Origin: a virus
Direction: 5' to 3' (one strand)
IMG/VR virus record: IMGVR_UViG_3300042691_014555
Span: 1-25,644 of that record
DNA length: 25,644 bases
This document shows positions 654-17,222 of the stretch, piece after piece. The notes beneath the pieces are model-generated. The model was not told the DNA's origin and did no database searches. It worked only from the letters and a program-made list of their open reading frames with translations. The translations under genes and the position numbers were made by a program. Positions within the stretch are counted from its first letter, which is position 1. Every line of letters starts with the position of its first letter.

Positions 654-894
654 GTTCGGTCCTTGTAAAGTTGGTTATCCAAAACACGGTCCCTACCCTA
701 TGACCTACGCCGGGGATGCTCCCAGTGTGATCAACGAGCTTGAGCACCGCTATGTACTTGCGCAGCCATCCGGGCAGCGCGTCATCTGAAAACCTAGTGA
801 CCGGTCCAACCGCAGTATTACGATTGAACGCGGTCACCTCCCAGCCCGTTTGGGTTTGGGTTATTCGATATGCATAATCGCTTTTTTGTTGCAT
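646..894 (-). CDS. Hypothetical protein, 82 aa
   Basis: The chosen ATG at 894 shares one base with the stop of the VWA gene upstream (TGATG), a typical coupled start; a TTG three bases further upstream is a weaker alternative. The product begins MQQKSDYAYRITQTQTGW and is rich in beta-type residues, with pairs such as YRITQ, WEVTAF and VGTVFWITNF. It may form a small beta sheet of unknown role. It lies between the VWA/metallopeptidase gene and the 129-aa gene and is almost certainly in their transcript. No family is recognised. Confidence 0.72.
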   Translation of the reverse strand: MQQKSDYAYRITQTQTGWEVTAFNRNTAVGPVTRFSDDALPGWLRKYIAVLKLVDHTGSIPGVGHRVGTVFWITNFTRTEHD

Positions 895-2063
895 CAAATA
901 TGTACCGTCACCCCTGCCGGGGCGGTGATGTGCTTGCTGTTAAGGCACCACAGCGTAGGTGCAGGCCAAGCCCCACCCCAGTCATCGCCTACGTACCCAT
1001 CGCTGAGCACGACGATGCAATCAGGGCGGATGTTGTTGTCCCGCATGTATTGCGTAACGCAGCTAGGTGCGGTGCCTCCCCCGCCCCTTGGTTTGGTGCT
1101 GCTACGCATCGTCTGGATCGTTGCCCCCTCGTAGACCTCGTGTGCTGCCACACTGTCGCCCCAGTACATGATGTCCACCATGTCAGGCTTGACTGACTCG
1201 CATATCCCTTGCGCCTCAGCAAGGAACTCGGCCAGCGTTTGGTTGTCAATGGACCCCGAGGTATCTACAGCCAACACCACCCGATGCACATGGTCACTGT
1301 ACGGGGTGGGCATAGTCATGCCTTGGCTTGTGAACCTGCGGTCAATGCGCCTGAACGTGGTGTAGTCATCACCGGGTTTACTGTTGCTGATGAAATCACG
1401 CAGCGCTGTGCGCCAGTCCACCTTGGGCTCCAGCATATCGGTGATGCTACGGTCCACGTTGGCGCCTGCCTTGCTTGCAAGGATGCTGCCCTGCCGCAGT
1501 GCTTGGTCTACCCCACGGGCCAGCTCCTCGATCTCTTCCTGCGACATACCCGCAGCGTTGCTCCAGTCGTGGTCATCGAACCCACCACTCATACCCAACT
1601 GAGCCTGCGCACCCGCATCATTGCCATACTTCTGCACCAGCAGGCGGTACACCTCCCCCGCGTCCATGCCACGGTACTGCTCATCAATGCAGCCACCCGC
1701 AGGCAGCGCGACGAATCTGTCGATGCGTGAACGGTCGAGGATGATGAGGTTGATCACGAAGTCACAGGCCATGTTGGCCAGCAGTGGGTTCTCTTCGTAG
1801 TAGTGCCGCCATGTGGACATGTGCTTGAACGCACAATGGAACTTCTCATGCAGCACAAGGCCCATCAGCTCAGGGTCAGTCAGTTTGTCGATGAACTGCT
1901 CACCGTAGAGCACGTTGACCCCATCGGTACGGGCTGTGATGTCCGGGTCATTGACGACCTCGGTGTTGCCATACACGATGATTCCTGCAAGGAACATGAA
2001 GTCCCTGTCACGCATGAGCGATACAGATGCCCGCTCAATTCGTTGTTGTGGTGTGAGTCCCAT
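894..2063 (-). CDS. DUF2201-like protein: HExxH metallopeptidase-like domain plus VWA domain (CobT-like partner of the AAA+ ATPase)
   Basis: The 389-residue protein has two recognisable parts. The N-terminal half carries HEKFH at 72-76, the HExxH zinc-site signature, in a context (GLVLHEKFHCAFKH) like the putative metallopeptidases of DUF2201. The C-terminal part is a von Willebrand A fold with an intact MIDAS: DTSGS at 267-271, a conserved acidic/Thr region near 325-332 (a Gly run followed by T331), and SDG at 354-356. The start at 2063 follows GAGGTAACT. It sits downstream of a MoxR/CobS-like AAA+ ATPase, matching the known pairing of such ATPases with VWA proteins. Likely role (inference): substrate adaptor or effector driven by the ATPase, possibly with peptidase activity. 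What it acts on is unknown. The domain call is firm; the enzymatic activity is not shown. Confidence 0.88.
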   Translation of the reverse strand: MGLTPQQRIERASVSLMRDRDFMFLAGIIVYGNTEVVNDPDITARTDGVNVLYGEQFIDKLTDPELMGLVLHEKFHCAFKHMSTWRHYYEENPLLANMACDFVINLIILDRSRIDRFVALPAGGCIDEQYRGMDAGEVYRLLVQKYGNDAGAQAQLGMSGGFDDHDWSNAAGMSQEEIEELARGVDQALRQGSILASKAGANVDRSITDMLEPKVDWRTALRDFISNSKPGDDYTTFRRIDRRFTSQGMTMPTPYSDHVHRVVLAVDTSGSIDNQTLAEFLAEAQGICESVKPDMVDIMYWGDSVAAHEVYEGATIQTMRSSTKPRGGGGTAPSCVTQYMRDNNIRPDCIVVLSDGYVGDDWGGAWPAPTLWCLNSKHITAPAGVTVHI

Positions 2064-2065
2064 AG

Positions 2066-2458
2066 TTACCTCAGAAATTTGTTGTATCTACTGTTTAACT
2101 CGGCGCGTTTGAGGTCACCCACTCTGCGCTCAAAATGTTCCATAGCGCGGTGAATCTCCTCTTGCACTGTGGCCCGAATGAGTTGCCGGATGCTGTCGAA
2201 GAAGACGGATCGCCCGAACGAGCTGCCCATCTGCCCGTGGTCGAACAGCTCATTCATCACCCGGGTCATGACAGGATGGCGTTCGTGTGCATCTGCGATC
2301 ATGAGGGTGTACAGAAAGCTCGTTGCATTGCGCTGTGAGGCGCCCCTATCGATAGGGTCGTTGAACAGCTTGCTCAATACATCCGCCACCTTCCGTTCAA
2401 CTACACCCGCGTCATGCAGGATGAAGAAGGCTTCGGCCTTGTCGTTGTCATCAGTCAT
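2066..2458 (-). CDS. Hypothetical protein of the AAA+/VWA cassette, 130 aa
   Basis: Start chosen at 2458 because GAGGTAACC precedes it at normal spacing; the GAGG overlaps the stop codon of the ATPase gene. A longer in-frame version would run into that gene. The product begins MTDDNDKAEAFFILHD and appears all-helical, ending in a highly charged stretch (EEIHRAMEHFERRVGD, then KRAELNSRYNKFLR) likely to form a coiled coil. It lies between the ATPase and the VWA gene, with only two bases to the latter, so it probably works in the same complex. No family is recognised; a linker or regulatory subunit is plausible inference. Confidence 0.8.
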   Translation of the reverse strand: MTDDNDKAEAFFILHDAGVVERKVADVLSKLFNDPIDRGASQRNATSFLYTLMIADAHERHPVMTRVMNELFDHGQMGSSFGRSVFFDSIRQLIRATVQEEIHRAMEHFERRVGDLKRAELNSRYNKFLR

Positions 2459-2465
2459 GGTTACC

Positions 2466-3536
2466 TCATGCGAAGAGATATTGGTTCTTGATGGCGAAGC
2501 TGGTGAACTTGTCACAGTCCATGACAAACGCCTTGCCCGGCTTCTTGATGACGGTGGTGCAGAACAATGCCTGTACTTCCTTGTTCATACGCGCCATGTA
2601 ATCCATCCACGGGTCGATGGTCACATCGTCCACCCAGTTAAGGGCTTGGTACGTCAACATCAGTTTGCCTGCCACCTGATCAGGTACACGCGCCCCAGTG
2701 GGGTTGCCGATGATCTCGGCCCGCTTGGGCAGGCTATCACCCATAGCGATCCACGCCTGCAAGTCCACAGCCGCAGGGGCACCGACCGTACCAGCAAGGG
2801 CAGCTTCCAGTGCAGCAGGGCTGAACATGTCACGCTTGCTGATGACCTTTGATGCCTGCTCCAATGAGCGATGGGTCACGAACGCGCTGCGCTGCGCTTT
2901 GGGGTGGAAGATGTACACGTTGTCATTGGCGTTGTCGTAGTAGTCATACGGGTGCAGCACATCGGGGCGCTCACCCACCCACATGAGGATCTCCGGCGCG
3001 ATGTTGTTGAACTTGGCCCAGTGGTTGATCCACGTTTCGGCATCGGTCTTTTGCATCTGCACAGATGACAGCCTGTTGCGGTGGTGTGCTTGAAACACAT
3101 CGCCCACGTTTTCCGCACCGAGGTTGGTCGTGGCAAACACGATGGAGTCAGGGTGTAGCTTGAAGTTGCCGAACCTACGCTCGACCAATGCAGGCATGGT
3201 TGCATCCTTCACAGGCTTGCTGGCCTTGCCATACTCATCGAGCATGAGGATCACAGGTACGTTGTCATGCAACCCAAACGACTCGTTGTAGTAGAACTCG
3301 GTGGTCTTCTTGTCGTGGTTGATAGCAGGGATGCGGATGTCACCCTCGTGCATCACGGTCATGTCCATGTACACCTTGCGATGCGTAGGAAAGCGCTCGG
3401 CTAGCGCGTTGATCAGGCTGGACTTGCCGGAGCCAATGTGGCCCTCGACAACTACAGATACCTCATGGCCGATGGCTGCGATGAGGTCCACGGTCTCGTT
3501 GTACGTGGTCTTGACGGAGTAAGCTTGCTTCTTCAT
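2466..3536 (-). CDS. MoxR/CobS-like AAA+ ATPase
   Basis: A 356-residue AAA+ ATPase. Visible motifs in order: Walker A GHIGSGKS (32-39), Walker B VILMLDEYGK (D100, E101), sensor-1 Asn in ATTNLG (N138), and HHRNRL (151-156), whose arginines are candidates for the Arg finger. Order and spacing match the MoxR/CobS (AAA_5) class rather than helicases or Clp unfoldases. These ATPases form rings that remodel partners, usually a VWA protein encoded nearby; such a protein is encoded two genes downstream at 894-2063. CobS-like genes are known in other phages, including T4-like cyanophages, where real cobalt chelation is doubtful. The start at 3536 follows AAAGGAACCACC. ATPase identity is confident; the remodelled substrate is unknown. 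Confidence 0.92.
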   Translation of the reverse strand: MKKQAYSVKTTYNETVDLIAAIGHEVSVVVEGHIGSGKSSLINALAERFPTHRKVYMDMTVMHEGDIRIPAINHDKKTTEFYYNESFGLHDNVPVILMLDEYGKASKPVKDATMPALVERRFGNFKLHPDSIVFATTNLGAENVGDVFQAHHRNRLSSVQMQKTDAETWINHWAKFNNIAPEILMWVGERPDVLHPYDYYDNANDNVYIFHPKAQRSAFVTHRSLEQASKVISKRDMFSPAALEAALAGTVGAPAAVDLQAWIAMGDSLPKRAEIIGNPTGARVPDQVAGKLMLTYQALNWVDDVTIDPWMDYMARMNKEVQALFCTTVIKKPGKAFVMDCDKFTSFAIKNQYLFA

Positions 3537-3554
3537 GGTGGTTCCTTTCAGGGT

Positions 3555-4424
3555 TTAGATTTCTAGGGAAAACTTGTCGGTCAGATCTTGCATCTTGACC
3601 TTGATTGCCTCACGCACTTCAGGCGATTGCCGCAGCGACTTGATATCCACATTGGTCAGTGAAAGCTCAAGCGCACGACGAGCCGCCTCAAGGTCGGGGT
3701 CATTCATAATGTTAAGTGACTTGAGAGTTTCACACAAACTCAAGGCGTTGTCCAGCATTGATTGATAAAGTTTTTGCGGCTTGCCATCTGCCTTGTCAAT
3801 CATCTTGTCCTTGATATGGCTGACCTCCTTGTACAGCCGCTCCCATGGCTCTTGCATCACGGTCTGCACGCGCTTGCTCACAGCCTGCTCAAAGTTAGCC
3901 TCGACCTGTGCCAATGCCTCAGCGGGCAGGTCCACACGGAAGTCCCCTGCTTGTGGCACGGGGGTGAACACGAATGTGAACCCGAACTTGTTCTCTATCT
4001 CACCTGCCGATGGGTACTCGACGGCAGAGAAGAACTTGCCCAGCTTGAACGCTTGCGCTGACACCTTGGTGCTGTAGTTGGTCAGGAACCGTTGCACCAG
4101 CTTGAAGAACTCTTGCTCGTGCTGATCCAACTCGTGGCTGATATCAAAGAACTTGCTTGTGGGCACAAGCCTCGTGCCGCCATCGGACCACGGCAGCGTG
4201 ACCTCATACAGCCACGCCCGCACCTTGCTGCCATACGCAACGATAGCCTCAAGGTCAGCGTCATCTGCGAACAGCGACTTGTACACGCTCGATGCCTTCT
4301 TGCTCTTGGCATTCTTGGCGGTGTTGATTTCCTCAGCGGTGGCCTTGTCTTGCTTGCGGCCCGTGTACGTGGAGATGTGCAGGTCCAGCAGCATGGCCGA
4401 ACCGGAGAGAGTTTTAGGTTTCAT
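3555..4424 (-). CDS. DUF3150-like protein, first gene of the AAA+/VWA cassette
   Basis: The 289-aa product begins MKPKTLSGSAMLLDLHIS and starts 10 bases after a GAGGTAACC element. It has a short N-terminal strand region (MLLDLHISTYTGRK), a Lys-rich stretch (residues 33-48), a central beta-type part (FGFTFVFTPVP, roughly 147-157) and a helical C-terminal half ending in a charged helix. From memory this layout, and its position next to a CobS-like ATPase and a VWA protein, match the DUF3150 family found with the same partners in mobile elements and phages; I cannot confirm the family by search. It lies 18 bases upstream of the ATPase. Likely an obligate third component of the machine. Confidence 0.8.
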   Translation of the reverse strand: MKPKTLSGSAMLLDLHISTYTGRKQDKATAEEINTAKNAKSKKASSVYKSLFADDADLEAIVAYGSKVRAWLYEVTLPWSDGGTRLVPTSKFFDISHELDQHEQEFFKLVQRFLTNYSTKVSAQAFKLGKFFSAVEYPSAGEIENKFGFTFVFTPVPQAGDFRVDLPAEALAQVEANFEQAVSKRVQTVMQEPWERLYKEVSHIKDKMIDKADGKPQKLYQSMLDNALSLCETLKSLNIMNDPDLEAARRALELSLTNVDIKSLRQSPEVREAIKVKMQDLTDKFSLEI

Positions 4425-4449: not shown

Positions 4450-4465
4450 TTCCTACGTGTAGGAG
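4450..4465. repeat. 16-bp palindrome, copy 1 of 7
   Basis: TTCCTACGTGTAGGAG: 7-bp arms around a GT centre, with one arm mismatch at the last base. It starts five bases after the stop of the 51-aa gene and lies 25 bases upstream of the DUF3150-like start. Confidence 0.8.
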
Positions 4466-4469
4466 AAAA

Positions 4470-4625
4470 TTAAACTTTGCGCTCGATTTGCTTGGCCAGC
4501 AACCACTTGTCACCCAGCCTGCGTACAGAGCGCACCCACTTACGTTGGTTGGCGCGGTTGACTTCCTGTGGAACGTGGGATGCGTTCCACAGTTGCCGCA
4601 CGTGTTTGAGCATGCGGATATTCAT
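4470..4625 (-). CDS. Small basic protein, 51 aa, overlapping the gene upstream
   Basis: An ATG at 4625 is preceded by AAGGAAAAAGCAA, a good ribosome binding site. The 51 codons read MNIRMLKHVRQLWNAS and on to a C-terminus IERKV. The product is very basic with alternating Arg/Lys and could bind nucleic acid. The frame overlaps the last 86 bases of the 139-aa gene in another frame, which is more than usual in this arm. Either both are expressed or the end of the upstream gene is shorter in nature. The palindrome at 4450-4465 follows its stop closely, as it does after three other genes, which supports this stop codon as a real gene end. Confidence 0.6.
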   Translation of the reverse strand: MNIRMLKHVRQLWNASHVPQEVNRANQRKWVRSVRRLGDKWLLAKQIERKV

Positions 4626-4959
4626 TTGCTTTTTCCTTGCTGAGTTGTTTGGCTAAATACAATGCGAAGTGCAGGTCAGTTTCAATGTCTGTCCTTTGTG
4701 TGCCCGCACTGAATTGCAGGAACGATGTAGCCCAGCCACTGTGATGACGCCAGCACAGGTGTGGTGACACAGAAGGTCTGTGTGTGTACCCATGCACAAC
4801 ACTTTTCACTTTTAGCAGGGCCTGCTTTGTCTGAAGATCGCCGCCCCCACAGATGTGACAGACATAACCCGAAGGCCGCTTCTTGGCCTCCTTGTATATG
4901 TGGTCAATCTGCAAGGTCAGTGCGTGTATTTTGGCTATATCCCGTGGGTTGAGCATCAT
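4540..4959 (-). CDS. Zinc-finger-like hypothetical protein, 139 aa
   Basis: The product begins MMLNPRDIAKIHAL and contains CHICGG (residues 34-39) and, after a basic loop, LCWRHH (68-73), a Cys/His set that could bind one zinc ion. After residue 75 come a beta/helical part and a helix (ALYLAKQLSKEK). The last 27 residues (after NEYP) are low-complexity Arg/Thr/Pro and coincide with the overlapping 51-aa gene, so they may be a by-product of that frame. The start overlaps the end of the 95-aa gene by 56 bases; the ribosome binding site is weak (AGG, five bases upstream), and the second ATG at 4956 is an alternative. No family is recognised; DNA or RNA binding is plausible. Confidence 0.65.
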   Translation of the reverse strand: MMLNPRDIAKIHALTLQIDHIYKEAKKRPSGYVCHICGGGDLQTKQALLKVKSVVHGYTHRPSVSPHLCWRHHSGWATSFLQFSAGTQRTDIETDLHFALYLAKQLSKEKANEYPHAQTRAATVERIPRSTGSQPRQPT

Positions 4960-5191
4960 CTTTGCCTATGGTCAATCCTTTGGTCGTCAATGCCAATGGT
5001 TCAAAGCGTAGCCCCGCCTTATGGCACAGCGCTGCTTCAAGCTCAAGCTTTTTGGTGTTGATGATTTGCACTGCCAGCTTGGCTACAGCCGCCGCCCTAT
5101 GGGCATCGCTCTTGCCATTACGTAGCAGATCGAACTCCTCAAACAAAGCCTCGCACAGCCCAGAGCTTGTGCGTTCAGTATAGGTATTCAT
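4904..5191 (-). CDS. Hypothetical protein, 95 aa
   Basis: Start chosen at the ATG at 5191 (MNTYTERTSSGLCEAL) because GAGG lies ten bases upstream, inside the end of the preceding gene; a TTG nine bases earlier is too close to that site. The protein is mainly helical (residues about 10-55, ending KLELEAALCHKAGL) and resembles the many small phage proteins with no known function. One base separates it from the upstream stop (TGACATG). Its end overlaps the next gene by 56 bases. Confidence 0.72.
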   Translation of the reverse strand: MNTYTERTSSGLCEALFEEFDLLRNGKSDAHRAAAVAKLAVQIINTKKLELEAALCHKAGLRFEPLALTTKGLTIGKDDAQPTGYSQNTRTDLAD

Positions 5192-5192
5192 G

Positions 5193-5567
5193 TCAGCCAA
5201 TCCTCATAACTTCAACGCAGTTGGCGTCAACGTCTTTATGGGTCGTGCTATTGCCGCTGCCCCAAAGGCGTAGTGTGTAGCTGCTCACGGTGCTATGCAA
5301 GGACTTCATGTTGCCCCCCTCATACATAGGCACACAGGCTACGTCACCGACCTGCATGTTATCCACATGGGTAGCTATGTGCTTGGTCAGCGCCCCGTGA
5401 GGGACACCACTACGCTGTGTGCGCTTGGGCACGGCAGGTGCCGTTGCCAGGATGAGGTCGCCCAGCATATGCATACCACCGTCACTGTCTTTGACGATGT
5501 ACTCAACGCCAAGGGCGGCGAGGGTTCTGAGGGTGCGGTCAAGGGTAAGTTGTTTGATGTTAGCCAC
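5193..5567 (-). CDS. Hypothetical protein, 124 aa, apparent GTG start, first gene of a promoter-led unit
   Basis: No ATG fits well; a GTG at 5567 with GGAG ten bases upstream gives a product that begins ANIKQLTLDRTLRTL after the initiator. A longer frame to 5630 would run through the promoter at 5602-5630, so the GTG is preferred. The N-terminal third is an amphipathic helix plus strands (EYIVKDSDGGMHMLGDLIL). The C-terminal part (about 90-124) reads SLHSTVSSYTLRLWGSG and ends VEVMRIG. That pattern is reminiscent of small winged-helix-like DNA-binding tails in phage proteins, but this is only a visual impression. Confidence 0.72.
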   Translation of the reverse strand: MANIKQLTLDRTLRTLAALGVEYIVKDSDGGMHMLGDLILATAPAVPKRTQRSGVPHGALTKHIATHVDNMQVGDVACVPMYEGGNMKSLHSTVSSYTLRLWGSGNSTTHKDVDANCVEVMRIG

Positions 5568-5601
5568 GATTTGGTTGCTCCAAAAGTTGATTGGAATACA
5601 T

Positions 5602-5630
5602 AGTTTACAAGATAAAGTTGAGAAAGTCAA
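5602..5630 (-). promoter_or_regulatory. Sigma70-type promoter for the 124-aa gene and those downstream
   Basis: On the minus strand TTGACT (5625-5630) and TAAACT (5602-5607) are separated by exactly 17 bases. Predicted transcription starts near 5595, about 28 bases before the GTG at 5567, which fits this late start. It would drive at least the genes down to the AAA+/VWA cassette. Confidence 0.6.
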
Positions 5631-5666
5631 GTTGGGTTAAAGGTGTGGTGTGTATCTGTTTCGATG

Positions 5667-5816
5667 CTATCCAGCCCTCCAATAAAGTAGATCAAGAACA
5701 ATGACGATGAGGGCAAGGCCCAGCGTTATCCACTCTACGGGGTACGTAGGGTTCCTGCGCTCGGTGGGAATGGGCTTGGGTAGCCCGTACTGCTTACTAC
5801 GCTTGGTGTGTCTCAT
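5667..5816 (-). CDS. Small single-pass membrane protein, 49 aa
   Basis: The ATG at 5816 follows GGAGG at ideal spacing and overlaps the stop of the peptidase gene in an ATGA junction. The product has a basic N-terminus (MRHTKRSKQYGLPKPI) and one strong hydrophobic helix (WITLGLALIVIVLDLLYW, residues about 29-46), ending RAG. With the positive charges before the helix, an N-in orientation is expected. Its role is unknown; a small lysis or membrane-modifying protein is possible but not supported by context. It is the last gene before the promoter at 5602-5630. Confidence 0.75.
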   Translation of the reverse strand: MRHTKRSKQYGLPKPIPTERRNPTYPVEWITLGLALIVIVLDLLYWRAG

Positions 5817-6955
5817 GCAGCCTCCCTGTACGTAGCGTCGAACAACTCGCAGCACACCGCGTTGGTATCCATGTAGCCAAGCATCTGCTCTGCGCTATCG
5901 AGGACTTCCGTGGTCAGCTTGTTGCGGTCAATGAACTTCTCAGCAAGCTCGGGGTCTTCGGGGTAGACCGTGCAAGCGATGAACTGCACCAAGGGGCTAA
6001 GCCGCCCGCTATGTGCTAAGTCCAAGCAGTCATACAGCTCATTGACCTCATCGTCTTCATTGCTGCCAGCCCACAGATTCACATCACGCGGGTCTACGCT
6101 GCCATAGCCACCAGCGGGGGCAGAAAGCCACCAGTTCTCGGGCTTTGGCATGGGGTCAGGCACCAGCGGGTCGCGCTGTGTGGGTAGCAAGTCCCACTGC
6201 ACCTTGAGTACTGCATCGGCAAGGTTGGCGAAGTGAAAGATATCGAGCTGCTCTTTGGCGCTGTGCTCGTAGTCATAGCCTACGCTGATGTTGGTGCATT
6301 CGGGGATGATGTCAGTGAACTCGGCTGTGTCTGTGTACACCCCTGTGTCATCGGGCAGGTACATCATGTGCTCGTTGCCTGCATTGAGCGCATCGGACAG
6401 AGCTTGTGCGAACCCATCGGAGCAGCAGCGCCCATACCCTTGGTGACTGATCACGCTGTCGATGCCACGCCTGTCGAACGCAATGGCGCGGCTGAACTGA
6501 TTGAGCAGGCCGGGGTAGTTATCGGCTAAGAACTTCGCACCGATGCCGCCGCATTCCTCGCCCTGCGTGAAGATGTAATAGCCCGGCACATGGTTGTGTA
6601 TCAGGTGCATGAGCATGGCACAGCCCGCACCGTCATCGGCACCCAGTGGCGCATCGTCTGCGTACCACATGGTCTTGGTCTTGCGGATCTTGTTGGCGCC
6701 CATCTCACGATGCACCGTGTCAACGTGGGCCACGAACAGTGTGCGGTTGGTCGCATCGATGCGGTTGTCGATGTGCATGTTGCCCGCTGCATCAAGCCAC
6801 ACAAGCTCAGGGTCATCGCGCAGATGTGCAGGTAGGTGCTCATACAGCCAGCCGGTGAAGTACTTGGTAGCCTGCGAATCGCCTGCTTTGTGTGGGCGCT
6901 TGATGGACAGGGCACGGGCAAGGGTGAGGTACAGGGGGGATTTTTTATTAAGCAT
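5813..6955 (-). CDS. M20/M28-like zinc metallopeptidase
   Basis: The 380-aa protein shows every expected metal and catalytic position of the co-catalytic zinc peptidase superfamily in order: HVD (H77, D79), GADDGAG (D107/D108), EE in QGEECGG (E133, E134), D161 in FDRRG, and H231 in YEHS. These make it a probable active amino- or carboxypeptidase, deacylase or related amidohydrolase, cytoplasmic because no signal peptide is seen. Residues after about 255 form an extra helical domain. The start at 6955 is preceded by TAGGA, which belongs to the palindrome at 6961-6976; longer frames run into the 432-aa gene. The substrate is unknown. Such peptidases occur sporadically in phage genomes. Confidence 0.88.
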   Translation of the reverse strand: MLNKKSPLYLTLARALSIKRPHKAGDSQATKYFTGWLYEHLPAHLRDDPELVWLDAAGNMHIDNRIDATNRTLFVAHVDTVHREMGANKIRKTKTMWYADDAPLGADDGAGCAMLMHLIHNHVPGYYIFTQGEECGGIGAKFLADNYPGLLNQFSRAIAFDRRGIDSVISHQGYGRCCSDGFAQALSDALNAGNEHMMYLPDDTGVYTDTAEFTDIIPECTNISVGYDYEHSAKEQLDIFHFANLADAVLKVQWDLLPTQRDPLVPDPMPKPENWWLSAPAGGYGSVDPRDVNLWAGSNEDDEVNELYDCLDLAHSGRLSPLVQFIACTVYPEDPELAEKFIDRNKLTTEVLDSAEQMLGYMDTNAVCCELFDATYREAA

Positions 6956-6960
6956 AATTT

Positions 6961-6976
6961 TTCCTACAGGTAGGGA
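6961..6976. repeat. 16-bp palindrome, copy 2 of 7, carrying the peptidase ribosome binding site
   Basis: TTCCTACAGGTAGGGA: AG centre, one arm mismatch. It fills most of the 22-base gap between the stop of the 432-aa gene (6978) and the peptidase ATG (6955). Read on the minus strand its right arm supplies the AGGA that serves as Shine-Dalgarno sequence. Confidence 0.8.
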
Positions 6977-6977
6977 G

Positions 6978-8276
6978 TTATTCGGTATCGGCATCGGTGT
7001 CATCGTCTGACTTAGGCATCTTGTCCTCGTCGGCGTAGTACTCACCGCTGTCCTCGTGGTGGTACACATCGCGCTTGAGGTGGTACTCGTCATCGTCAAC
7101 GCACATCACGATGCGCTCATCGTCACAGTGGTAGTAGTCACCGTCGACCTCGACGGTATTGTCGGCATGCTCAGCGTCACCGTTACGCAGGATCACGATC
7201 CCGTTGGAATCGAGGTACTCATCGTCGTAGTACTCTTGATGCGACTCGACATATATAGCATGGTCTTGGTGTACGTAGTACTGACGGCCGTTGCGGCCAT
7301 AGGCATACACATAGCTGTTCTCGCAGCAGGAGTTGCAGATAATGTCCTCTTCCCACGGGCCTGACCAATGGCCATCGCCGTCACGCACACGGTCACCACA
7401 GTCAGAGCATTCAGTGCCACCGCATTCATCAGCGTCACCGCCGGTGTTGTCGCATTTGTAGTCACCGTCATCCACGATGAGCAGGTAGTTGCTATTGCAA
7501 TTACCTTTGCGTGTTACCTCTTTAACGTTACCGTCGAGGAAGGGTGCAACGAACCCGCAGTCGTTGCGGGCCGGGATGATCTTGAGCTTGCAGTTCGCCC
7601 AATCACCCACCTTGGCATAGCCCTGAGCTTTGAGCCACACCTCAAGCTGCTCGTCGGCGGGGGAATACCCATCGACCTTTTTGTAGCTACGCACGAAGAA
7701 CTTATTGTCCCCAGCCTGCATGCACAGCGCACGGCCCACGGTGTCGCCACCTTGCATACGCACTGCCATGTGCCAGCCAAACGCAGGGTCATACACTTCA
7801 TACGGGTGGTGGTATACGCCGTCCTCACCCTTGACCCCGCTGTCGTCTTCCCACTGCATACATGAGCCCGGCCCCCGTTCTAGGTGGTAGATCATCTCGG
7901 CCATGGTGTGGATGAACTTGAACTCGGCGGACTGGGATTGAGCCAGCGCCACGATGTCCCGGATGGCATCGTCAGGCATCACGAAGTGGGCCCGCAGGTA
8001 CTTGCCAAGGGTTGTGACTGTCTGCCGGTTTTGCATCCCGTCCCGGTCGCTGCGGGTGTACGCCACCCTAGTCATGTCGTTTGGGTACGTCTTGCTCTCA
8101 TGCGGCCACTGCAACAGCAGCGCATGCCAGTCGATGGGCTGGAACATCTCCACTGCCTTCATCACGTACGGGTGATACCGGGCGGCTCCTGACTCCCGAG
8201 CGAACCACTCACGATGGCGGGCCACGATGAACCGGGCATCGTTCATTACATCTAACATGTTTTGTCCGTTGTACAT
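6978..8276 (-). CDS. Acidic protein with a Cys-rich zinc-ribbon segment, 432 aa
   Basis: The N-terminal 240 residues look globular and mixed alpha/beta (begins MYNGQNMLDVMNDARF). From about 255 to 320 there is a Cys cluster: CDNTGGDADECGG, then CSDCGD, then CNSCCEN, enough for one or two zinc sites. The last 110 residues are strongly acidic and rich in Tyr, His and Asp, with a loosely repeated unit of the type YYxDDEYxD followed by a turn (YYDDEYLDSNG; YYHCDDERIVMC; YYADEDKM). This could be a metal-binding or DNA-mimicking tail. The start at 8276 has only a weak AAAGA site; the in-frame ATG at 8258 is an alternative. No family is recognised. It precedes the peptidase by 22 bases. Confidence 0.85.
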   Translation of the reverse strand: MYNGQNMLDVMNDARFIVARHREWFARESGAARYHPYVMKAVEMFQPIDWHALLLQWPHESKTYPNDMTRVAYTRSDRDGMQNRQTVTTLGKYLRAHFVMPDDAIRDIVALAQSQSAEFKFIHTMAEMIYHLERGPGSCMQWEDDSGVKGEDGVYHHPYEVYDPAFGWHMAVRMQGGDTVGRALCMQAGDNKFFVRSYKKVDGYSPADEQLEVWLKAQGYAKVGDWANCKLKIIPARNDCGFVAPFLDGNVKEVTRKGNCNSNYLLIVDDGDYKCDNTGGDADECGGTECSDCGDRVRDGDGHWSGPWEEDIICNSCCENSYVYAYGRNGRQYYVHQDHAIYVESHQEYYDDEYLDSNGIVILRNGDAEHADNTVEVDGDYYHCDDERIVMCVDDDEYHLKRDVYHHEDSGEYYADEDKMPKSDDDTDADTE

Positions 8277-8300
8277 AGCATCTTTCTTTCAGTTGCGAAT

Positions 8301-8322
8301 GCCCCCTGAGTCGGCAGGGGGC
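8301..8322 (-). other. GC-rich intergenic hairpin
   Basis: GCCCCCTG (8301-8308) and CAGGGGGC (8315-8322) form a perfect 8-bp stem with a 6-base loop, ten bases from palindrome copy 3 and 25 bases upstream of the 432-aa gene. No T-run follows on the minus strand, so it is not a classic terminator. It may protect the transcript or slow the polymerase. Confidence 0.6.
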
Positions 8323-8331
8323 TAACCGTTT

Positions 8332-8347
8332 TTCCTACGGGTAGGAT
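8332..8347. repeat. 16-bp palindrome, copy 3 of 7
   Basis: TTCCTACGGGTAGGAT: GG centre, last base mismatched. It directly abuts the stop codon of the 65-aa gene at 8348. Confidence 0.8.
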
Positions 8348-8545
8348 TTATTGGGGTGGATAGCTCAGGTTATCTTTCACCCACGTGACCAGCAGGTGGG
8401 CGTCCAGTGCTGCATCTTTGATGGGTTCAAGGTGGTTTGGGTTCACCGTGCTGGCCTCCATTAAGTTTTCTGCCTCCCTGGCTATACCAGCCAGTAGTTT
8501 GTGCAGGTGGTCCAATGCATCGTGCAGGTTGTCGGGGTTTGTCAT
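8348..8545 (-). CDS. Hypothetical protein, 65 aa
   Basis: Start chosen at 8545, where GGAG precedes the ATG and an ATGA overlap joins it to the upstream gene. The product begins MTNPDNLHDALDHLHKLL and looks like a short helical bundle: two helices with a proline-containing turn (NPNHLEP) and a final helix (DAHLLVTWVKDNL). It resembles many small phage proteins without function. A palindrome copy follows the stop without a gap. Confidence 0.75.
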   Translation of the reverse strand: MTNPDNLHDALDHLHKLLAGIAREAENLMEASTVNPNHLEPIKDAALDAHLLVTWVKDNLSYPPQ

Positions 8546-8757
8546 TTGGTTTCTCCGTTGATGAGTGCCGCTATTTTTGCAGCGGGGGTGTTGAACACGC
8601 TTTCTACGCGGTAGCGTCCGTACATGGTGATGCACACCTCTACGCGGGGCATACCTGCGTGTATGCCTTTTTCATACGGCGTCTCTTGTTGCACATACAC
8701 TACATGTATGGGGTTGACCCACAGGTCAGTGTCGGGAAGTTTTACTAGCTTTTTCAT
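8542..8757 (-). CDS. Hypothetical protein, 71 aa
   Basis: ATG at 8757 preceded by AAGGAAAAACCGA. The product begins MKKLVKLPDTDLWVNP and is mostly strands (IHVVYVQQE, RVEVCITMY, YRVESVF) followed by a helix (AAKIAALINGE). The compact strand-rich fold followed by one helix occurs in several small phage proteins, but no family can be named. Its start overlaps the stop of an 11-codon mini-frame at 8754-8786. Confidence 0.78.
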   Translation of the reverse strand: MKKLVKLPDTDLWVNPIHVVYVQQETPYEKGIHAGMPRVEVCITMYGRYRVESVFNTPAAKIAALINGETK

Positions 8758-8786
8758 TCGGTTTTTCCTTGCAGTGCCTCGATCAT
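8754..8786 (-). CDS. Possible 10-residue mini-gene
   Basis: ATG at 8786 with AGGAG seven bases upstream and a stop that overlaps the next start (ATGA at 8754-8757). It encodes MIEALQGKTE. The site is as strong as those of its neighbours, so ribosomes probably use it, either to make a peptide or to carry translation from the 55-aa gene into the 71-aa gene. The short length keeps confidence low. Confidence 0.35.
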   Translation of the reverse strand: MIEALQGKTE

Positions 8787-8787
8787 G

Positions 8788-8955
8788 TCATTGCTCCTCT
8801 TTGTAAAAAACATGGTTGACGTACCAGTCCTTGCTGGCGCTGTCGGGGTCTTTGTCCAGCTCAGCCCACGCTAGGTCTTCAGCTTCGCTGGGGGTCTCGG
8901 CCTCCACCTCAATTTCAAGGAAGGCCGTGCGTTTGAACTCTACGTAAAACTTCAT
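8788..8955 (-). CDS. Hypothetical protein, 55 aa
   Basis: ATG at 8955 preceded by AAGGAGAAATCCA; the longer frame lacks a binding site. The product begins MKFYVEFKRTAFLEIEV: two beta strands and then a helix (PSEAEDLAWAELDKD), the beta-beta-alpha pattern of small phage proteins in which an EVEAETPSEAEDLA-type segment recurs. Acidic, no Cys. Function unknown. Confidence 0.78.
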   Translation of the reverse strand: MKFYVEFKRTAFLEIEVEAETPSEAEDLAWAELDKDPDSASKDWYVNHVFYKEEQ

Positions 8956-8971
8956 TGGATTTCTCCTTCGG

Positions 8972-9115
8972 TTAAATACAGTAACGGTACCCGCGCCCAT
9001 CATCGGTTGCGGTCAGGTGGCGCAGGTGCAACTCAGCCAGCACCTTGTCAATGAACACCGCCTCAAGCCAGGGCGTCTCGGTGTCACTCCCCCACAAAAG
9101 CCATACTTGTTTCAT
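8972..9115 (-). CDS. Hypothetical protein, 47 aa
   Basis: ATG at 9115 preceded by GAGGACAAC, with an ATGA overlap to the zinc-ribbon gene upstream. The product begins MKQVWLLWGSDTETPWLE and continues with a helix (FIDKVLAELHLRHL) and a short strand to CI. Very small soluble proteins beginning with strand-Trp-Gly-Ser patterns are seen in other phages; no function is known. The frame upstream of this ATG is not coding. Confidence 0.7.
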   Translation of the reverse strand: MKQVWLLWGSDTETPWLEAVFIDKVLAELHLRHLTATDDGRGYRYCI

Positions 9116-9318
9116 GTTGTCCTCTTGGGGTTTAACTGTTTCAGGGTCTCGGGGTTGGTGATGAGCATGTAATTGCTCTTGTTGATAGGTGCTGTGGTGT
9201 GCTTCTGCGCTTTGGCAAGGCGCTCGCCGCAGTCCATGCAGGTGCGGTATCCGAGCGCGGCGCGTCTGTGGTCTACGTGCCCGCCCCAGCAGTGGGTACA
9301 GAGAATCTTGTGGCTCAT
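9112..9318 (-). CDS. Zinc-ribbon protein, 68 aa
   Basis: ATG at 9318 follows AAGGAACCC. The product begins MSHKILCTHCWGGHVDHR and has CxxC at 7-10 and a second CxxC at 27-30 (CMDCG), a four-Cys zinc ribbon with His neighbours. The remaining 35 residues are basic and Thr/Pro-rich. Small zinc ribbons of this kind often bind DNA, RNA or a polymerase subunit; which one applies cannot be seen. It is the first clear gene after the 420-base leader that starts at the consensus promoter, so it is a candidate early gene. Confidence 0.8.
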   Translation of the reverse strand: MSHKILCTHCWGGHVDHRRAALGYRTCMDCGERLAKAQKHTTAPINKSNYMLITNPETLKQLNPKRTT

Positions 9319-9369
9319 GGGTTCCTTTCGTTGCGATAAGGTTGTGGTTGTGGTGCGGTATGCACCCCA

Positions 9370-9388
9370 AAGGACACGGGGTGTCCTT
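9370..9388 (-). other. Perfect 8-bp hairpin in the leader
   Basis: AAGGACAC (9370-9377) and GTGTCCTT (9381-9388) flank a 3-base centre, 52 bases upstream of the zinc-ribbon start. There is no T-run, so it is not a standard terminator. It may be a protein-binding site or a pause hairpin. Confidence 0.6.
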
Positions 9389-9580
9389 CAGGCTGGCTAC
9401 AGCATGTGAACGGGTGTGGATATTTATACCCAGCACCCGAATGTTTTTCTCATTGCTTGTTTGGTTTTACTTCGCCTACTCGTGCAGGAAGGTGTCCGGG
9501 CAAGGTGTGGTTTTCTTCTCTTGCGATCTACCTATGCACTTCTCGTTGGGGTTGCCCCGTATTAATCCGAGCGGCGAAGG

Positions 9581-9630
9581 GGGGGATGCATGGCATGGTG
9601 CGGGCTGCGAACAGCCGCACTACATCCCCC
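9581..9630 (-). ncRNA. Two-part stem-loop in the leader, possible structured RNA
   Basis: The outer stem pairs GGGGGATG (9581-9588) with CATCCCCC (9623-9630). The inner stem pairs 9598-9607 with 9612-9620, nine base pairs with one bulged base, and is closed by a loop that reads UUCG on the minus strand. A 9-base internal segment (9589-9597) lies on one side. Stems this long and GC-rich are unlikely by chance in a short gene-free stretch. No riboswitch class is recognised. Confidence 0.5.
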
Positions 9631-9664
9631 GAATGAGTTGTGAAAAAGCAGGTGGCGCGTAAAG

Positions 9665-9680
9665 TTCCTACGGGTAGGAA
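9665..9680. repeat. 16-bp palindrome, copy 4 of 7
   Basis: TTCCTACGGGTAGGAA with perfect 7-bp arms and a GG centre. It lies in the leader about 57 bases downstream of the predicted transcription start. Confidence 0.85.
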
Positions 9681-9743
9681 AAATCCGCAAGGTGAAGAAA
9701 CCCGTGCGCCACACAGCGGGACGATCCCCGACTGTTACTTAAC

Positions 9744-9772
9744 ATTATAAAGTAGTTCGGGGGGTTTGTCAA
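9744..9772 (-). promoter_or_regulatory. Consensus sigma70 promoter of the leftward operon
   Basis: On the minus strand TTGACA (9767-9772) and TATAAT (9744-9749) both match the consensus exactly, with 17 bases between them. Predicted start is near 9737. It reads into the leader and the small-gene run from 9318 downward. Such a perfect host-type promoter is typical of early phage genes. Confidence 0.85.
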
Positions 9773-9804
9773 GTTGGAACTATGATGTTTTTATGTATCT
9801 CTGG

Positions 9805-9818
9805 GGGGCTTTTGCCCC
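9805..9818 (-). other. Hairpin after the 167-aa gene
   Basis: GGGGCTTTTGCCCC forms a 5-bp stem with a 4-base loop seven bases after the stop at 9825. On the minus strand no T-run follows, so termination is uncertain. It may mark the end of that message ahead of the next promoter. Confidence 0.4.
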
Positions 9819-9824
9819 GTGCGC

Positions 9825-10328
9825 TCACGATACCCGCACCACCTTCAAATACCGGGCATGGTCTTTCGGATCGCCAGCGCCCACACGTAGGGTCTCGGTG
9901 CGGAACTCGCGGTCATGGTTCTTGGTGTGGTAATGGCAGGCCACGCGCAGGTTGTTGGCATGGACGAACGGCACGATCACGATCCCCCCGACTGGCATGG
10001 TTTTGATGTGGTAGACCGCCTGCTTGCGGTCCATGACGAGGTAGGTATCGAGTAGGGCTATGAGTTGGGCTTGGTGGGATGTGTCGTGCAGGCTGCGGCT
10101 GTCGGGGGTTAGGTTTTGATAGTAATGCAGGCGGGCCTGCACTTCCGCGTTGGAATTGATGCGGGCAACGCCGCTCAAGGGGTTGGTGGGGTTTGAGTGC
10201 TGGGCAGGGATGTCGGCAGCAGCATAGGCGCTGCGGGTCAGTTCGGGGTTGGGGTCCATGTCGGCAGGGGTGTCGAGGGTGCTGAGGGTGCTACGCAGGG
10301 GGCGTGGGGGGACGGGCTGAAAGGGCAT
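9825..10328 (-). CDS. Hypothetical protein, 167 aa
   Basis: Start chosen at 10328 (MPFQPVPPRPLRSTL) because GGAG lies seven bases upstream; a longer frame has no binding site. Residues 1-75 are rich in Pro, Ser, Thr and Ala and probably disordered. Residues 75-115 include helices (AEVQARLHYYQNL, AQLIALLDTYLVM), and the C-terminal 50 residues are strands with many His and Arg (ACHYHTKNHDREFR). No known motif is recognised. The gene stands alone between the candidate origin/control region and the main leftward promoter, so it may be a separate regulatory or replication gene, but this rests on position only. Confidence 0.75.
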   Translation of the reverse strand: MPFQPVPPRPLRSTLSTLDTPADMDPNPELTRSAYAAADIPAQHSNPTNPLSGVARINSNAEVQARLHYYQNLTPDSRSLHDTSHQAQLIALLDTYLVMDRKQAVYHIKTMPVGGIVIVPFVHANNLRVACHYHTKNHDREFRTETLRVGAGDPKDHARYLKVVRVS

Positions 10329-10408
10329 GAGGGTGCTCCGGTGGGTTGAAAAGGGTGATTGTACTACGTTCCTAAAAGTCACAATTGGGGACTACCTAAA
10401 GCTACTGA

Positions 10409-10571
10409 AAGCTAAGATGTTCCTAAGCGTGTTCTGGAAAAAAGGGGGTGAAAAGGGGGTGATTTAGGAAATGGTGAAATCGATTAGGGAACGGGGAAAC
10501 CCAATGAAATCGCGGGTTGTGGCGGGGGGTGCCTACCAAAAGCTAAGGAATTAAGCGATTAAAAAGCTAAG
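10409..10571 (+). repeat. Direct repeat AAAGCTAAG, three copies
   Basis: Exact 9-base copies at 10409-10417, 10539-10547 and 10563-10571, with a partial copy at 10397-10404. The last two are 24 bases apart start to start, close to two helical turns. Confidence 0.6.
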
Positions 10572-10596
10572 TCGTGAAAAATCAGCGCCAGCTTTT

Positions 10597-10612
10597 TTCC
10601 TACGGGTAGGAA
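10597..10612. repeat. 16-bp palindrome, copy 5 of 7
   Basis: TTCCTACGGGTAGGAA, perfect arms with a GG centre, preceded by a run of T. It lies inside the gene-free region between the direct repeats and the AT block. Confidence 0.85.
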
Positions 10613-10721
10613 GTTGAGGGGAATGAGTTGCAGCAAAAAGAGTTTACAAGGAAGTCCCAACAACCGGCCAAAATCCCCCAAGAAAATTTTCCAGAGCTGC
10701 CAAACGTTCTTTTTTAGGAAC

Positions 10722-10759
10722 ATTAATAAATTAATATAATATAGTATATTATATATATA
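10722..10759. other. AT-only block, possible unwinding element
   Basis: Of 38 bases only one (10744) is G; the rest are A or T, in a genome that is otherwise GC-rich. This would melt easily. It also contains TATAAT-like sequence on both strands. Confidence 0.6.
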
Positions 10760-10775
10760 GAAAAAGAGGTTTTAA
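10748..10775 (-). promoter_or_regulatory. Possible promoter for the 167-aa gene
   Basis: On the minus strand TTAAAA (10770-10775) and TATAAT (10748-10753) are 16 bases apart. The -10 box is perfect but lies in an AT-only block, where such matches arise easily. The leader to the gene would be about 400 bases. Confidence 0.35.
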
Positions 10776-10789
10776 TTTGGTCGCTGCTG

Positions 10790-10929
10790 GTGGCTGCTTA
10801 TGCTGATTGCCACAACTTATCATGTTCTGGTAGTTGTCTGGAACGTACTTGGAACAAAGTTTAGAATTTAGGTTTTTGTGAAAGCCGTGGTCGTGGCTGC
10901 TCTCGCCCGTGGCTGCTGCCGTGGCTGCT
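10790..10929 (+). repeat. Direct repeat GTGGCTGCT, four copies
   Basis: Exact copies at 10790-10798, 10893-10901, 10909-10917 and 10921-10929; the last three are 16 and 12 bases apart. They sit on the right side of the AT block and could be iterons. Confidence 0.6.
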
Positions 10930-11042
10930 CTTACCCACCAGTTCCCTCGGCGCAAGCATTGATGCTGGTTAGCAAGGGAAACATGTGCTATGGGTCTGGT
11001 TGATACGTGAACGTGGGCGTTCCAGAACGCAGACGCAAAAAA

Positions 11043-11060
11043 GCCCCGAAAAATCGGGGC
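11043..11060 (-). terminator. Rho-independent terminator, second of a tandem pair
   Basis: Stem GCCCCGA/TCGGGGC with a 4-base loop, followed on the minus strand by a T-run (11037-11042). It backs up the terminator at 11069-11088 after the 161-aa gene. Confidence 0.85.
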
Positions 11061-11068
11061 GCAAAAAA

Positions 11069-11088
11069 GCCCGGGTCAAAGCCCGGGC
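11069..11088 (-). terminator. Rho-independent terminator, first of a tandem pair
   Basis: Perfect 7-bp stem GCCCGGG/CCCGGGC with a 6-base loop, followed on the minus strand by six T (11063-11068). It ends the message of the 161-aa gene and isolates it from the gene-free region. Confidence 0.88.
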
Positions 11089-11092
11089 GGAA

Positions 11093-11108
11093 TTCCTACA
11101 GGTAGGAA
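11093..11108. repeat. 16-bp palindrome, copy 6 of 7
   Basis: TTCCTACAGGTAGGAA, perfect arms with an AG centre. It lies between the stop of the 161-aa gene (11112) and the tandem terminators. Confidence 0.85.
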
Positions 11109-11111
11109 AAA

Positions 11112-11597
11112 TTAGTCTTTAATTTCGTAACCCTCGGATTCAAGGGTTACACGGATCAGGTCAGATAATGAACCCTCATCATTGTCATATGACCCTTGCA
11201 GATCAGACACCAATGCAGCGAAACCCTCATGTGAAAACAGTTTTGCGAGAATCGGGAAAATTGTGGTGTCTTTTTCGCCCTTGCCCTTGCCCTTGGCGCC
11301 CTTGCCCTTGCTGGCCGAAAACGAAAATTCCGTGCCATTGTTGACACAATCGGCCACTGTGGTAACGTAGTTCATTAGGGTTTTTTCTGACTTACCCGGA
11401 AAACCTGCCTTATATGCATCGATTAGCTGCACGCGATACTGGCACGTTTTCTTCGATGCGCCGATTGTGACTTGCCCTTTCCGCAGGGTTTCGATGTGAC
11501 CCTTGATTACTGCAAGGGCGGAAAGCCCCGCATTGTGGGCGGATGCGATACCCTTGAAAAGGGCGATAGTGTCAATGGTGGATTGTGTAGTAGCCAT
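11112..11597 (-). CDS. Hypothetical protein with a Lys/Gly repeat linker, 161 aa
   Basis: The product begins MATTQSTIDTIALFKGIA. Two helical halves are joined by a flexible basic linker, KGKGAKGKGKGEKD (about residues 97-110), encoded by a tandem CCCTTG-type repeat at 11278-11311. The N-terminal half (residues 25-90) has Lys/Arg-rich helices with a GKSEKTLMNYVTTV segment that could be a helix-turn-helix. The gene is a single-cistron unit: its own promoter with an overlapping inverted repeat (11644-11697), and two strong terminators behind it. That isolation and its position at the divergence of the two arms suggest a regulator, which is inference. No family is recognised. Confidence 0.8.
   Translation of the reverse strand: MATTQSTIDTIALFKGIASAHNAGLSALAVIKGHIETLRKGQVTIGASKKTCQYRVQLIDAYKAGFPGKSEKTLMNYVTTVADCVNNGTEFSFSASKGKGAKGKGKGEKDTTIFPILAKLFSHEGFAALVSDLQGSYDNDEGSLSDLIRVTLESEGYEIKD
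11278..11311 (-). repeat. Tandem CCCTTG hexamer repeat inside the 161-aa gene
   Basis: About five hexamer units (CCCTTG with one GCGCC interruption) encode the Lys-Gly linker. Such tracts are prone to slippage, so the linker length may vary between relatives. Confidence 0.7.
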
Positions 11598-11643
11598 GAT
11601 ACGGAAAACCTTTCATTACGAAACCCGAAAACCCTCGGGGAGG

Positions 11644-11663
11644 CATGCACTTGTTTGTGCATG
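11644..11663. promoter_or_regulatory. Inverted repeat over the transcription start of the 161-aa gene, likely operator
   Basis: CATGCAC (11644-11650) and GTGCATG (11657-11663) are perfect arms with a 6-base spacer. They cover the predicted start of the minus-strand promoter at 11670-11697, the usual place for a repressor site. Confidence 0.55.
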
Positions 11664-11669
11664 GGGTCT

Positions 11670-11697
11670 ATTGTGACACATTGGTAGGCATTGTCAA
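11670..11697 (-). promoter_or_regulatory. Promoter for the 161-aa gene
   Basis: On the minus strand TTGACA (11692-11697, perfect) is followed after 16 bases by CACAAT (11670-11675, four of six). The weak -10 box suggests regulation. Palindrome copy 7 lies 13 bases upstream of the -35 box. Confidence 0.55.
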
Positions 11698-11710
11698 ATG
11701 GTATCAGTCT

Positions 11711-11726
11711 TTCCTACCGGTAGGAA
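11711..11726. repeat. 16-bp palindrome, copy 7 of 7
   Basis: TTCCTACCGGTAGGAA, the only copy whose full 16 bases are a perfect palindrome. It sits directly upstream of the promoter of the 161-aa gene, between the two divergent arms. Confidence 0.85.
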
Positions 11727-16622: not shown

Positions 16623-16819
16623 TGGACGCTAAGGTAGCTGGGCTCCTCAATGAAAAACTTGAGGAGCGCAAGATTCAACTCAGCGAAGTTTTGTGTGCTG
16701 GTAATGCTAAGTCTTACGAGCACTACAAAGAGTTGTGCGGGCAAATCCGGGGTCTCATGACCGCACAACTAGAACTGTCAGACCTCGTGCGTAGATTGAA
16801 GGATGCTGAAGATGAGTGA
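16622..16819 (+). CDS. Small helical protein, 65 aa
   Basis: The start shares one base with the portal stop (TAATG), with GGTGAG upstream. The product begins MDAKVAGLLNEKLEERK and is one long helical hairpin (helices about 2-30 and 32-62) ending KDAEDE, probably a coiled coil. It lies between the portal and the GroES-like gene. Small helical proteins in this position are common in phage head operons and are often unassigned; it may help scaffold or connector assembly. Confidence 0.8.
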   Translation: MDAKVAGLLNEKLEERKIQLSEVLCAGNAKSYEHYKELCGQIRGLMTAQLELSDLVRRLKDAEDE

Positions 16820-17222
16820 AATCTTGATTGGGCAAACACTGGACCCGAAAGGGCCAGTATCCGTACTGCCGGGAACGGCTGAGGAGAAGGCAAAACAAGT
16901 GCCGGACCCATCCACCTACCACCTCCTATGTGTATTGCCGGAGGTCGATGAGGAGTATGACAGTGGGCTGATTAAGGCCGGTCAGACCATGCATTTCGAG
17001 GAGCTGCTATCTCCCGTTTTGTTTGTCGTGAAGATGGGGCCGGACGCCTATAAGGACGAGAAACGGTTCCCCAGCGGCCCGAGCTGCAAGGTAGGGGATT
17101 TTGTTTTGGTCCGCCCGAATACGGGTACCCGGATCAAGATTCATGGCAAAGAGTTCCGAGTCATATTGGATGAGTCGGTCGAAGCTGTTGTGCAAGATCC
17201 TCGTGGCATTACAAGGGTGTAA
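16812..17222 (+). CDS. GroES-like co-chaperonin (Cpn10 family)
   Basis: The ATG at 16812 with GAAGG nine bases upstream is preferred over 16803, which is too close to its site; it overlaps the previous gene by eight bases. The 136-aa protein has the GroES beta-barrel pattern: LLCVLPEVDEEYDSGLI (residues 38-54) as the first barrel strand and start of the mobile loop, VVKMGPDAYKDE (72-83), CKVGDFVLVRPNTGT (92-106), and FRVILDESVEAVVQD (115-129). Known phage Cpn10 homologues such as T4 gp31 cap host GroEL so that it can fold the large capsid protein. Its place among head genes fits this. The barrel call is fairly firm; whether it works with GroEL is inference. Confidence 0.78.
   Translation: MSEILIGQTLDPKGPVSVLPGTAEEKAKQVPDPSTYHLLCVLPEVDEEYDSGLIKAGQTMHFEELLSPVLFVVKMGPDAYKDEKRFPSGPSCKVGDFVLVRPNTGTRIKIHGKEFRVILDESVEAVVQDPRGITRV

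Follow-up and report, generated by a model that had tools for sequence, protein, structure and literature searches.

A lineage-specific palindrome dispersed among the early genes of freshwater phages, and a small neighbouring gene as the likely source of its reader

The DNA analysed here is a metagenomic virus fragment of 25.6 kb (positions 1 to 25,644 of IMG/VR record IMGVR_UViG_3300042691_014555; hereafter, the window), and the element in question is a short palindrome, TTCCTAC-NN-GTAGGAA, that recurs between its leftward genes. The window belongs to a large unstudied group of freshwater phages, the early genes of which are dotted with one short palindrome, each lineage possessing its own version. 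Since the palindrome and one small neighbouring gene change together between lineages, the product of that gene is likely the reader of the palindrome, and sequence comparison makes it a candidate controller of the early genes. In the window this is a protein of 161 amino acids (aa), encoded at 11112..11597 on the minus strand. We assign a probability of roughly 0.7 to the whole reading, according to which the palindromes form a distributed array of operators bound by the small protein, which would repress its own promoter and the early operon. The literature searched, which did not extend to most subscription papers, yielded no account of these palindromes.

An earlier note on this DNA, made from the letters alone, had placed the motif at positions 4450, 6961, 8332, 9665, 10597, 11093 and 11711, and it is present at all seven. 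The arms of the copies at 4450, 6961 and 8332 contain one mismatch each, while those at 9665, 10597, 11093 and 11711 are perfect. Two additional matches with three mismatches (3376 and 13326) are chance-like: shuffling predicts 0.52 occurrences (standard deviation 0.80) at up to three mismatches, and the observed count was reached in none of 100 shuffles. As the note had it, the seven copies are all intergenic and confined to gaps of the leftward early arm, which encodes DUF3150, AAA ATPase, DUF2201 metallopeptidase/VWA and M28 peptidase proteins. The rightward arm (terminase, portal and capsid genes) lacks them, both in the window and in near-complete relatives.

The copies occupy the same places in relatives; their numbers, c1 to c8, rise with distance from the terminase genes. 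As palindromes, they are assigned to neither strand. Site c1 (TTCCTAC-CG-GTAGGAA, 11711..11726) lies 13 bp upstream of the -35 element of the small-gene promoter (11670..11697, minus strand; TTGACA-16-CACAAT, with an extended -10), a region recognisable across lineages. Site c2 (11093..11108) begins 3 nt past the small-gene stop codon and immediately precedes the terminators of that gene, at a position common to nearly all lineages, and c3 (10597..10612), which is syntenic in relatives, lies in a non-coding region near AT-rich DNA, the candidate origin of the note. The main leftward early operon has a promoter that matches the sigma70 consensus at 12 of 12 positions (9744..9772, minus strand; TTGACA-17-TATAAT), and c4 (9665..9680) lies in the leader of this operon, about 60 nt past the promoter. 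Site c6 (8332..8347) directly follows a stop codon, 55 nt ahead of a 432-aa early gene; c7 (6961..6976) begins 1 nt past a stop codon and ends 5 nt ahead of the start of the M28 peptidase gene; and c8 (4450..4465) begins 4 nt past a stop codon, 25 nt ahead of the DUF3150 gene. Thus, four copies start 0-4 nt after a leftward stop codon (c6, c7, c2 and c8, at 0, 1, 3 and 4 nt, respectively). They do not have the make-up of intrinsic terminators, in agreement with the note: in the direction of transcription the stem is not followed by a T-run, and separate true intrinsic terminators follow c2 in tandem (11043..11088, minus strand; 11088-11069 and 11060-11043).

Relatives were gathered from IMG/VR through matches to the motif and to the TerL protein; all are contigs from metagenomes, and many of them are fragments. 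The motif is present in the left arm of about 40 contigs whose TerL is 78-92% identical to that of the window, and in near-complete genomes of 48-66 kb all 4-9 copies are located within about 8 kb to the left of the terminase genes, while the structural arm is free of them. This motif is absent from relatives with TerL 45-56% identical. L157, L176 and L185, which look like exceptions, possess the same arms with a 3-bp centre. The nearest isolates according to TerL are the Pelagibacter phages HTVC023P and HTVC027P and phage DSL-LC04 (43-46% identity); a paper devoted to the HTVC023P group is silent on palindromes, and no close isolate was found among the phage records searched. In the genome contigs searched for hosts, neither TerL nor the small gene found a match.

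Among 119 de-duplicated copies the arms are near-invariant, while the flanks are merely AT-rich. The centre does vary, as had been claimed, but it is not wholly free: when the leftward strand is read, 88 of the 119 copies have C as the first base of the centre and 5 have G. The spacer is 2 bp long in 116 copies and 3 bp in 23, and both lengths occur within one genome; other lengths were not seen, apart from insertion-like cases in which the site is split by a small hairpin. In one such case, L189, c7 (5444 bases left of TerL) is interrupted by AGCAGAGC...GCTCTGCT, which places the arms about 28 nt apart, and the same split c7 is found in L316, at position 1263 relative to the 432-aa gene. Arm changes were found in 37 of 143 copies, with 39 positions altered on one side and one position altered on both. 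A change on one arm is hardly ever balanced by one on the other, which speaks against an RNA hairpin; together with the near-invariance of the arms, this sequence pattern is the signature of DNA read on both arms rather than of a maintained RNA helix. As a separate observation, the centre dinucleotide agrees among copies of one genome in 28% of cases compared to 16% in permutations (0 of 5000 as high), in a test that still held some near-duplicate genomes; this agreement is a sign of homogenisation or of a trans-acting preference.

The phenomenon extends well beyond the TTCCTAC lineage. With the conserved 432-aa early gene as the probe (6978..8276, minus strand; '480-aa family', sites on both flanks), we retrieved 80 further loci, and repeated palindromes were sought in them without any template. 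In the wider group that shares the early genes, 66 of 70 loci contain, in the same region, a palindrome family with three or more copies, compared to 0 of 70 shuffled loci under a uniform count. The copies of one genome or locus share one arm sequence, or site type, e.g. CGGGTCAC-N-GTGACCCG, GGCGGAAC-N-GTTCCGCC or GGGGACA-N2-TGTCCCC at equivalent places. Arms with a 1-bp spacer include GGCGGAAC, GGGGGAAC, CGGGTCAC, CGGGTCAG, CGATTCAG and GTGTTGCAC; those with a 2- or 3-bp spacer are GGGGACA and GTGGGACA; the remaining ones are GTGAGACA (spacer 3), CGTCATAC and GGGGAAGN (spacer 2), AGAGAGAA (spacer 0) and others. Rhizobium phage Pasto is a distant relative according to the 432-aa gene. One contig reached by pattern match alone (L288:39-183) contains clustered GCGGAACA repeats and two GGCGGAAC palindromes.

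The gene that keeps step with the site type is the small one. In the window it is the first leftward gene, beside the terminase genes, and we propose that it encodes a site-binding autoregulator. In 22 of 23 loci examined, c2 starts 0-5 nt from the stop codon of a small gene of 123-217 aa located beside the terminase genes; the sole exception is L365, in which no such gene was found. It must be noted that proximity to c2 served to find the small genes, so that lineages without c2 are under-represented. The note had asked about co-occurrence with a small gene, and the 161-aa gene is indeed confined to site-bearing phages of this lineage. The small proteins split into several families that follow the site types: the 161-aa protein and its L360 homologue (31% identical) pair with TTCCTAC and CGTCATAC sites, group A proteins with GGGTCAC, CGGGTCAG and CGATTCAG sites, group B proteins with GGGGACA sites, and group C proteins with GGCGGAAC and GGGGGAAC sites. 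Among 18 lineages, the similarity of sites correlates with that of small genes (Mantel test, r 0.42, p 0.0001), and the correlation is the same when the 432-aa gene is partialled out (r 0.42, p 0.0001). No correlation of site similarity was found with the 432-aa gene itself (r 0.06, p 0.32) or with the early-operon gene of the M28-type peptidase (5813..6955, minus strand, recognised by Pfam PF04389; r 0.05, p 0.34, n=17).

The 161-aa protein comprises an N-terminal domain of helices with conserved Lys/Arg residues, a Lys-rich linker and a helical C-terminal domain, and AlphaFold models are mainly helical both for this protein (predicted local distance difference test, pLDDT, 84) and for group A (pLDDT 89). 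Profile comparison revealed no homology between the 161-aa and 134-aa families, and a search with the L360 small protein alone matched only itself. Foldseek searches with the 161-aa and group A models gave no match at E <=0.001, and the best VIA Z values for the two (5.4 and 4.6) are within background. No known regulator was seen with Pfam or PHROGs in the proteome of one relative, among 25 of 71 PHROGs families listed. Another candidate binder, a ribbon-helix-helix-like open reading frame (88-267), was rejected, as it was not found among the reading frames common to the relatives.

The match between protein and site can be followed to single residues in group A, which was extended to 80 loci, with 30 sequences less than 90% identical retained. 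His at position 90 accompanies an innermost G in 7 of 7 cases and a residue other than His accompanies C or A in 23 of 23, whereas the next best column agrees in 26 of 30. Similarly, Lys42 with Lys77 goes with an outer AT (4 of 4) and Glu42 with Val77 with an outer GG (26 of 26). Five loci in which the stop codon initially appeared to be followed by no site (L455, L456, L457, L458 and L460) turned out to have CGGGTCAC further on or overlapping the stop, and their Arg90 is consistent with these sites; no site was seen in the short locus L453. When these columns are left out of the tree, the His90 label requires five changes, each of them matched by the base.

The position of c1 relative to the promoter of the small gene also bears on the function. 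In groups B, C and D it is part of the leader, while the window family and several group A lineages have it upstream. From an upstream position, outside the transcript of that promoter, an RNA element would be unable to act, while the operator of a repressor can act from either side; a position that varies with the lineage is what one would expect if c1 is an operator. Some loci (e.g. L163, L177 and L046) contain GACAA direct repeats in variable number between c1 and the -10 element. Of the options left by the note, a protein-binding site, specifically a phage-specific operator, is strongly supported, as the sites covary with a phage gene across lineages. That a phage-encoded protein recognises the palindromes as sites in double-stranded DNA appears very probable to us, and that this protein is the product of the 161-aa gene (11112-11597) is probable, the binding being deduced from covariation. 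That it represses rather than has some other effect is a view towards which we lean only slightly.

In the mechanism that we propose, the 161-aa protein would bind as a symmetric dimer, with one protomer on each 7-bp arm, and the flexibility of the bound dimer would permit spacers of 2 or 3 bp. At c1, by its own promoter, and at c4, shortly after the start of the main early transcript, the bound protein would hold back initiation and early elongation. Binding in the untranslated gaps (c2, c6, c7 and c8), in which no ribosome would trail the RNA polymerase, would possibly present a roadblock to elongation. The early genes would thereby be turned down once the small protein accumulates.

Several observations weigh against this interpretation. 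No recognisable DNA-binding domain is present in either small-protein family, with neither a Pfam match nor a confident fold match. The distance from c1 to the -10 element varies, from about 35 to 50 bp. In group A, only two of the five His90/base changes fall on well-supported branches, because of which the strictest test of covariation is not significant. Finally, the centre lacks symmetry and follows the direction of transcription (C first), an orientation that a simple symmetric dimer leaves unexplained. Since reversing a stoperator abolishes repression in Cluster A mycobacteriophages (PMC9283540), a directional effect on RNA polymerase is, by analogy, one possibility here.

The same orientation would suit RNA hairpins in the leftward early transcript, acting in nut/boxB-like antitermination or as targets of an RNA-binding regulator and read together with boxA-like sequences. 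Most copies are transcribed, folding is possible although modest (-4.8 to -7.9 kcal/mol for this motif), and boxA-like GTTCTTTAAAAACAT follows the leader copy c4 in many relatives. We consider this explanation improbable, as an invariant stem with a variable loop is the reverse of what is seen in protein-bound hairpins, the 39 one-arm changes are set against one two-arm change, spacers of 4 or more were never seen apart from the insertion-like cases, c1 precedes the promoter in the lineages named above, and the boxA-like sequence is missing after many copies. RNA processing, another option of the note, is likewise disfavoured by invariant arms, variable centres and the lack of compensatory changes, and by the copy ahead of a promoter, which would fall outside the RNA made from it. 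The boxA-like sequences downstream of c4 (GTTCTTTAAAAACAT and TTGTTCTTTAACATC in L042, L163, L189 and L205) deserve attention on their own, as they suggest that the long early operon may be subject to antitermination by host Nus factors. A different alternative retains the DNA sites but makes the phage protein an activator, an origin or partition factor, or an organiser of DNA instead of a repressor. The confinement of all copies to about 8 kb, the presence of one in a non-coding region near AT-rich DNA and the variable spacing between site and promoter speak for it, and we regard it as unlikely but deserving some weight; the placement by promoters, after stops and before starts fits transcription control better, and no ParB_N homologue was found in 10 records, while the same search matches in 10 control genomes.

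The absence of a classical regulator recognised in the phage proteome could also mean that the sites belong to a host transcription factor exploited by the phages, as proposed for CtrA in alphaproteobacterial phages (PMC9437464). It is very improbable here, given that the site type differs among phages with common early genes and tracks one phage gene. Two further ideas are, in our view, scarcely credible: that the palindromes are hairpin promoters for a virion RNA polymerase like that of N4, or that they are mobile or recombination elements that have dispersed. The former would account for oriented small-loop hairpins in the early arm, and a giant late protein has a weak match in the virion RNA polymerase family, within its N-terminal, non-catalytic part; however, when this protein was checked, catalytic RNA polymerase motifs were not found, the HD motif is missing in 4 of 5 genomes, there is no PDB match, and the protein appears to be a polyvalent one with LPD38 or ADP-ribosyltransferase (ART) domains. 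A PF00940 search for RNA polymerase gave no match, nor did its control genomes. The agreement of centre dinucleotides within a genome could be taken as favouring either of these explanations. Mobile or dispersal elements, also suggested in the note, fit poorly, since the copies, unlike their flanks, have kept their sequence and syntenic positions over deep divergence, and neither an integrase nor a resolvase was found. The giant late protein itself (about 2000-2500 aa) is encoded at L241:14985 to L242:2427, L225:8072-14998 and L229:10045-15960, with the LPD38 polyvalent domain in two relatives and the ADP-ribosyltransferase domain in a third.

Returning to the operator array, its closest analogue is the stoperator system of Cluster A mycobacteriophages; judged by this analogy, the array would work like a stoperator system, but we do not file it as one. 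In phages such as L5 and TipsytheTRex, stoperators are dispersed in gaps and at promoters, mostly in one orientation, and their sequence differs between lineages in step with the repressor, with one site near the repressor gene (PMC9283540, PMC6550527). The L5 sites are asymmetric, 13 bp long and bound by a helix-turn-helix (HTH) monomer, and the phages are temperate, with an integrase or parABS (PMC9283540, PMC6550527). The sites described here resemble them in that many copies are dispersed over the promoters and intergenic gaps of the early genes, and in covarying between lineages with a candidate regulator gene. They differ in being palindromic, with spacers of 0-3 bp depending on the lineage, and the proteins gave no Pfam match and weak fold hits only, matching no recognised family with confidence. 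Moreover, integrase and serine recombinase or resolvase (PF00589, PF00239) were not found in 15 records of 47-66 kb, which are possibly incomplete, while control genomes match; ParB_N was not found in 10.

KorB/O_B and ParB/parS are also short intergenic palindromes bound by one dimeric, autoregulating protein. The likeness lies in the scatter of short palindromes over intergenic regions and in the autoregulation that we propose; on the other hand, ParB_N is found in 0 of 10 records, the sites are confined to one phage arm, and their specificity turns over fast. The lambda-type nut sites (boxA/boxB) are served by lineage-specific N proteins, and here, too, a small early protein and a palindrome change together between lineages and a boxA-like sequence follows c4. 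However, there are several copies per operon, the stem is invariant with a variable centre and no compensatory changes, and one copy lies outside the transcript in some lineages, whereas nut sites are always transcribed.

Two neighbouring features of the window may be of interest in their own right. The trio of a DUF3150 protein, an AAA ATPase and a DUF2201 metallopeptidase/VWA protein (894-4424) is kept in nearly all relatives examined, and a gene for a GroES-like co-chaperonin (16803-17222) is located within the structural arm.

With several protein families and over ten site types at a single syntenic locus, and with His90 and residues 42 and 77 of group A as candidate specificity determinants, these phages offer a natural experiment in which a DNA-binding protein and all its sites shift specificity together. 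It is tempting, although decidedly tentative, to see in them an apparently virulent freshwater phage superfamily with small DNA-binding regulators of an unrecognised fold, in which palindromic specificity has switched repeatedly and all 4-9 operators of a genome have changed in concert. If true, such concerted switching would create immunity-like incompatibility groups in phages without lysogeny. Control by a repressor and an array of operators, hitherto studied as lysogenic immunity, is also indicated in phages with no detected integration genes, and if the small protein silences co-infecting relatives, the site type would predict which phages are compatible in co-infection.

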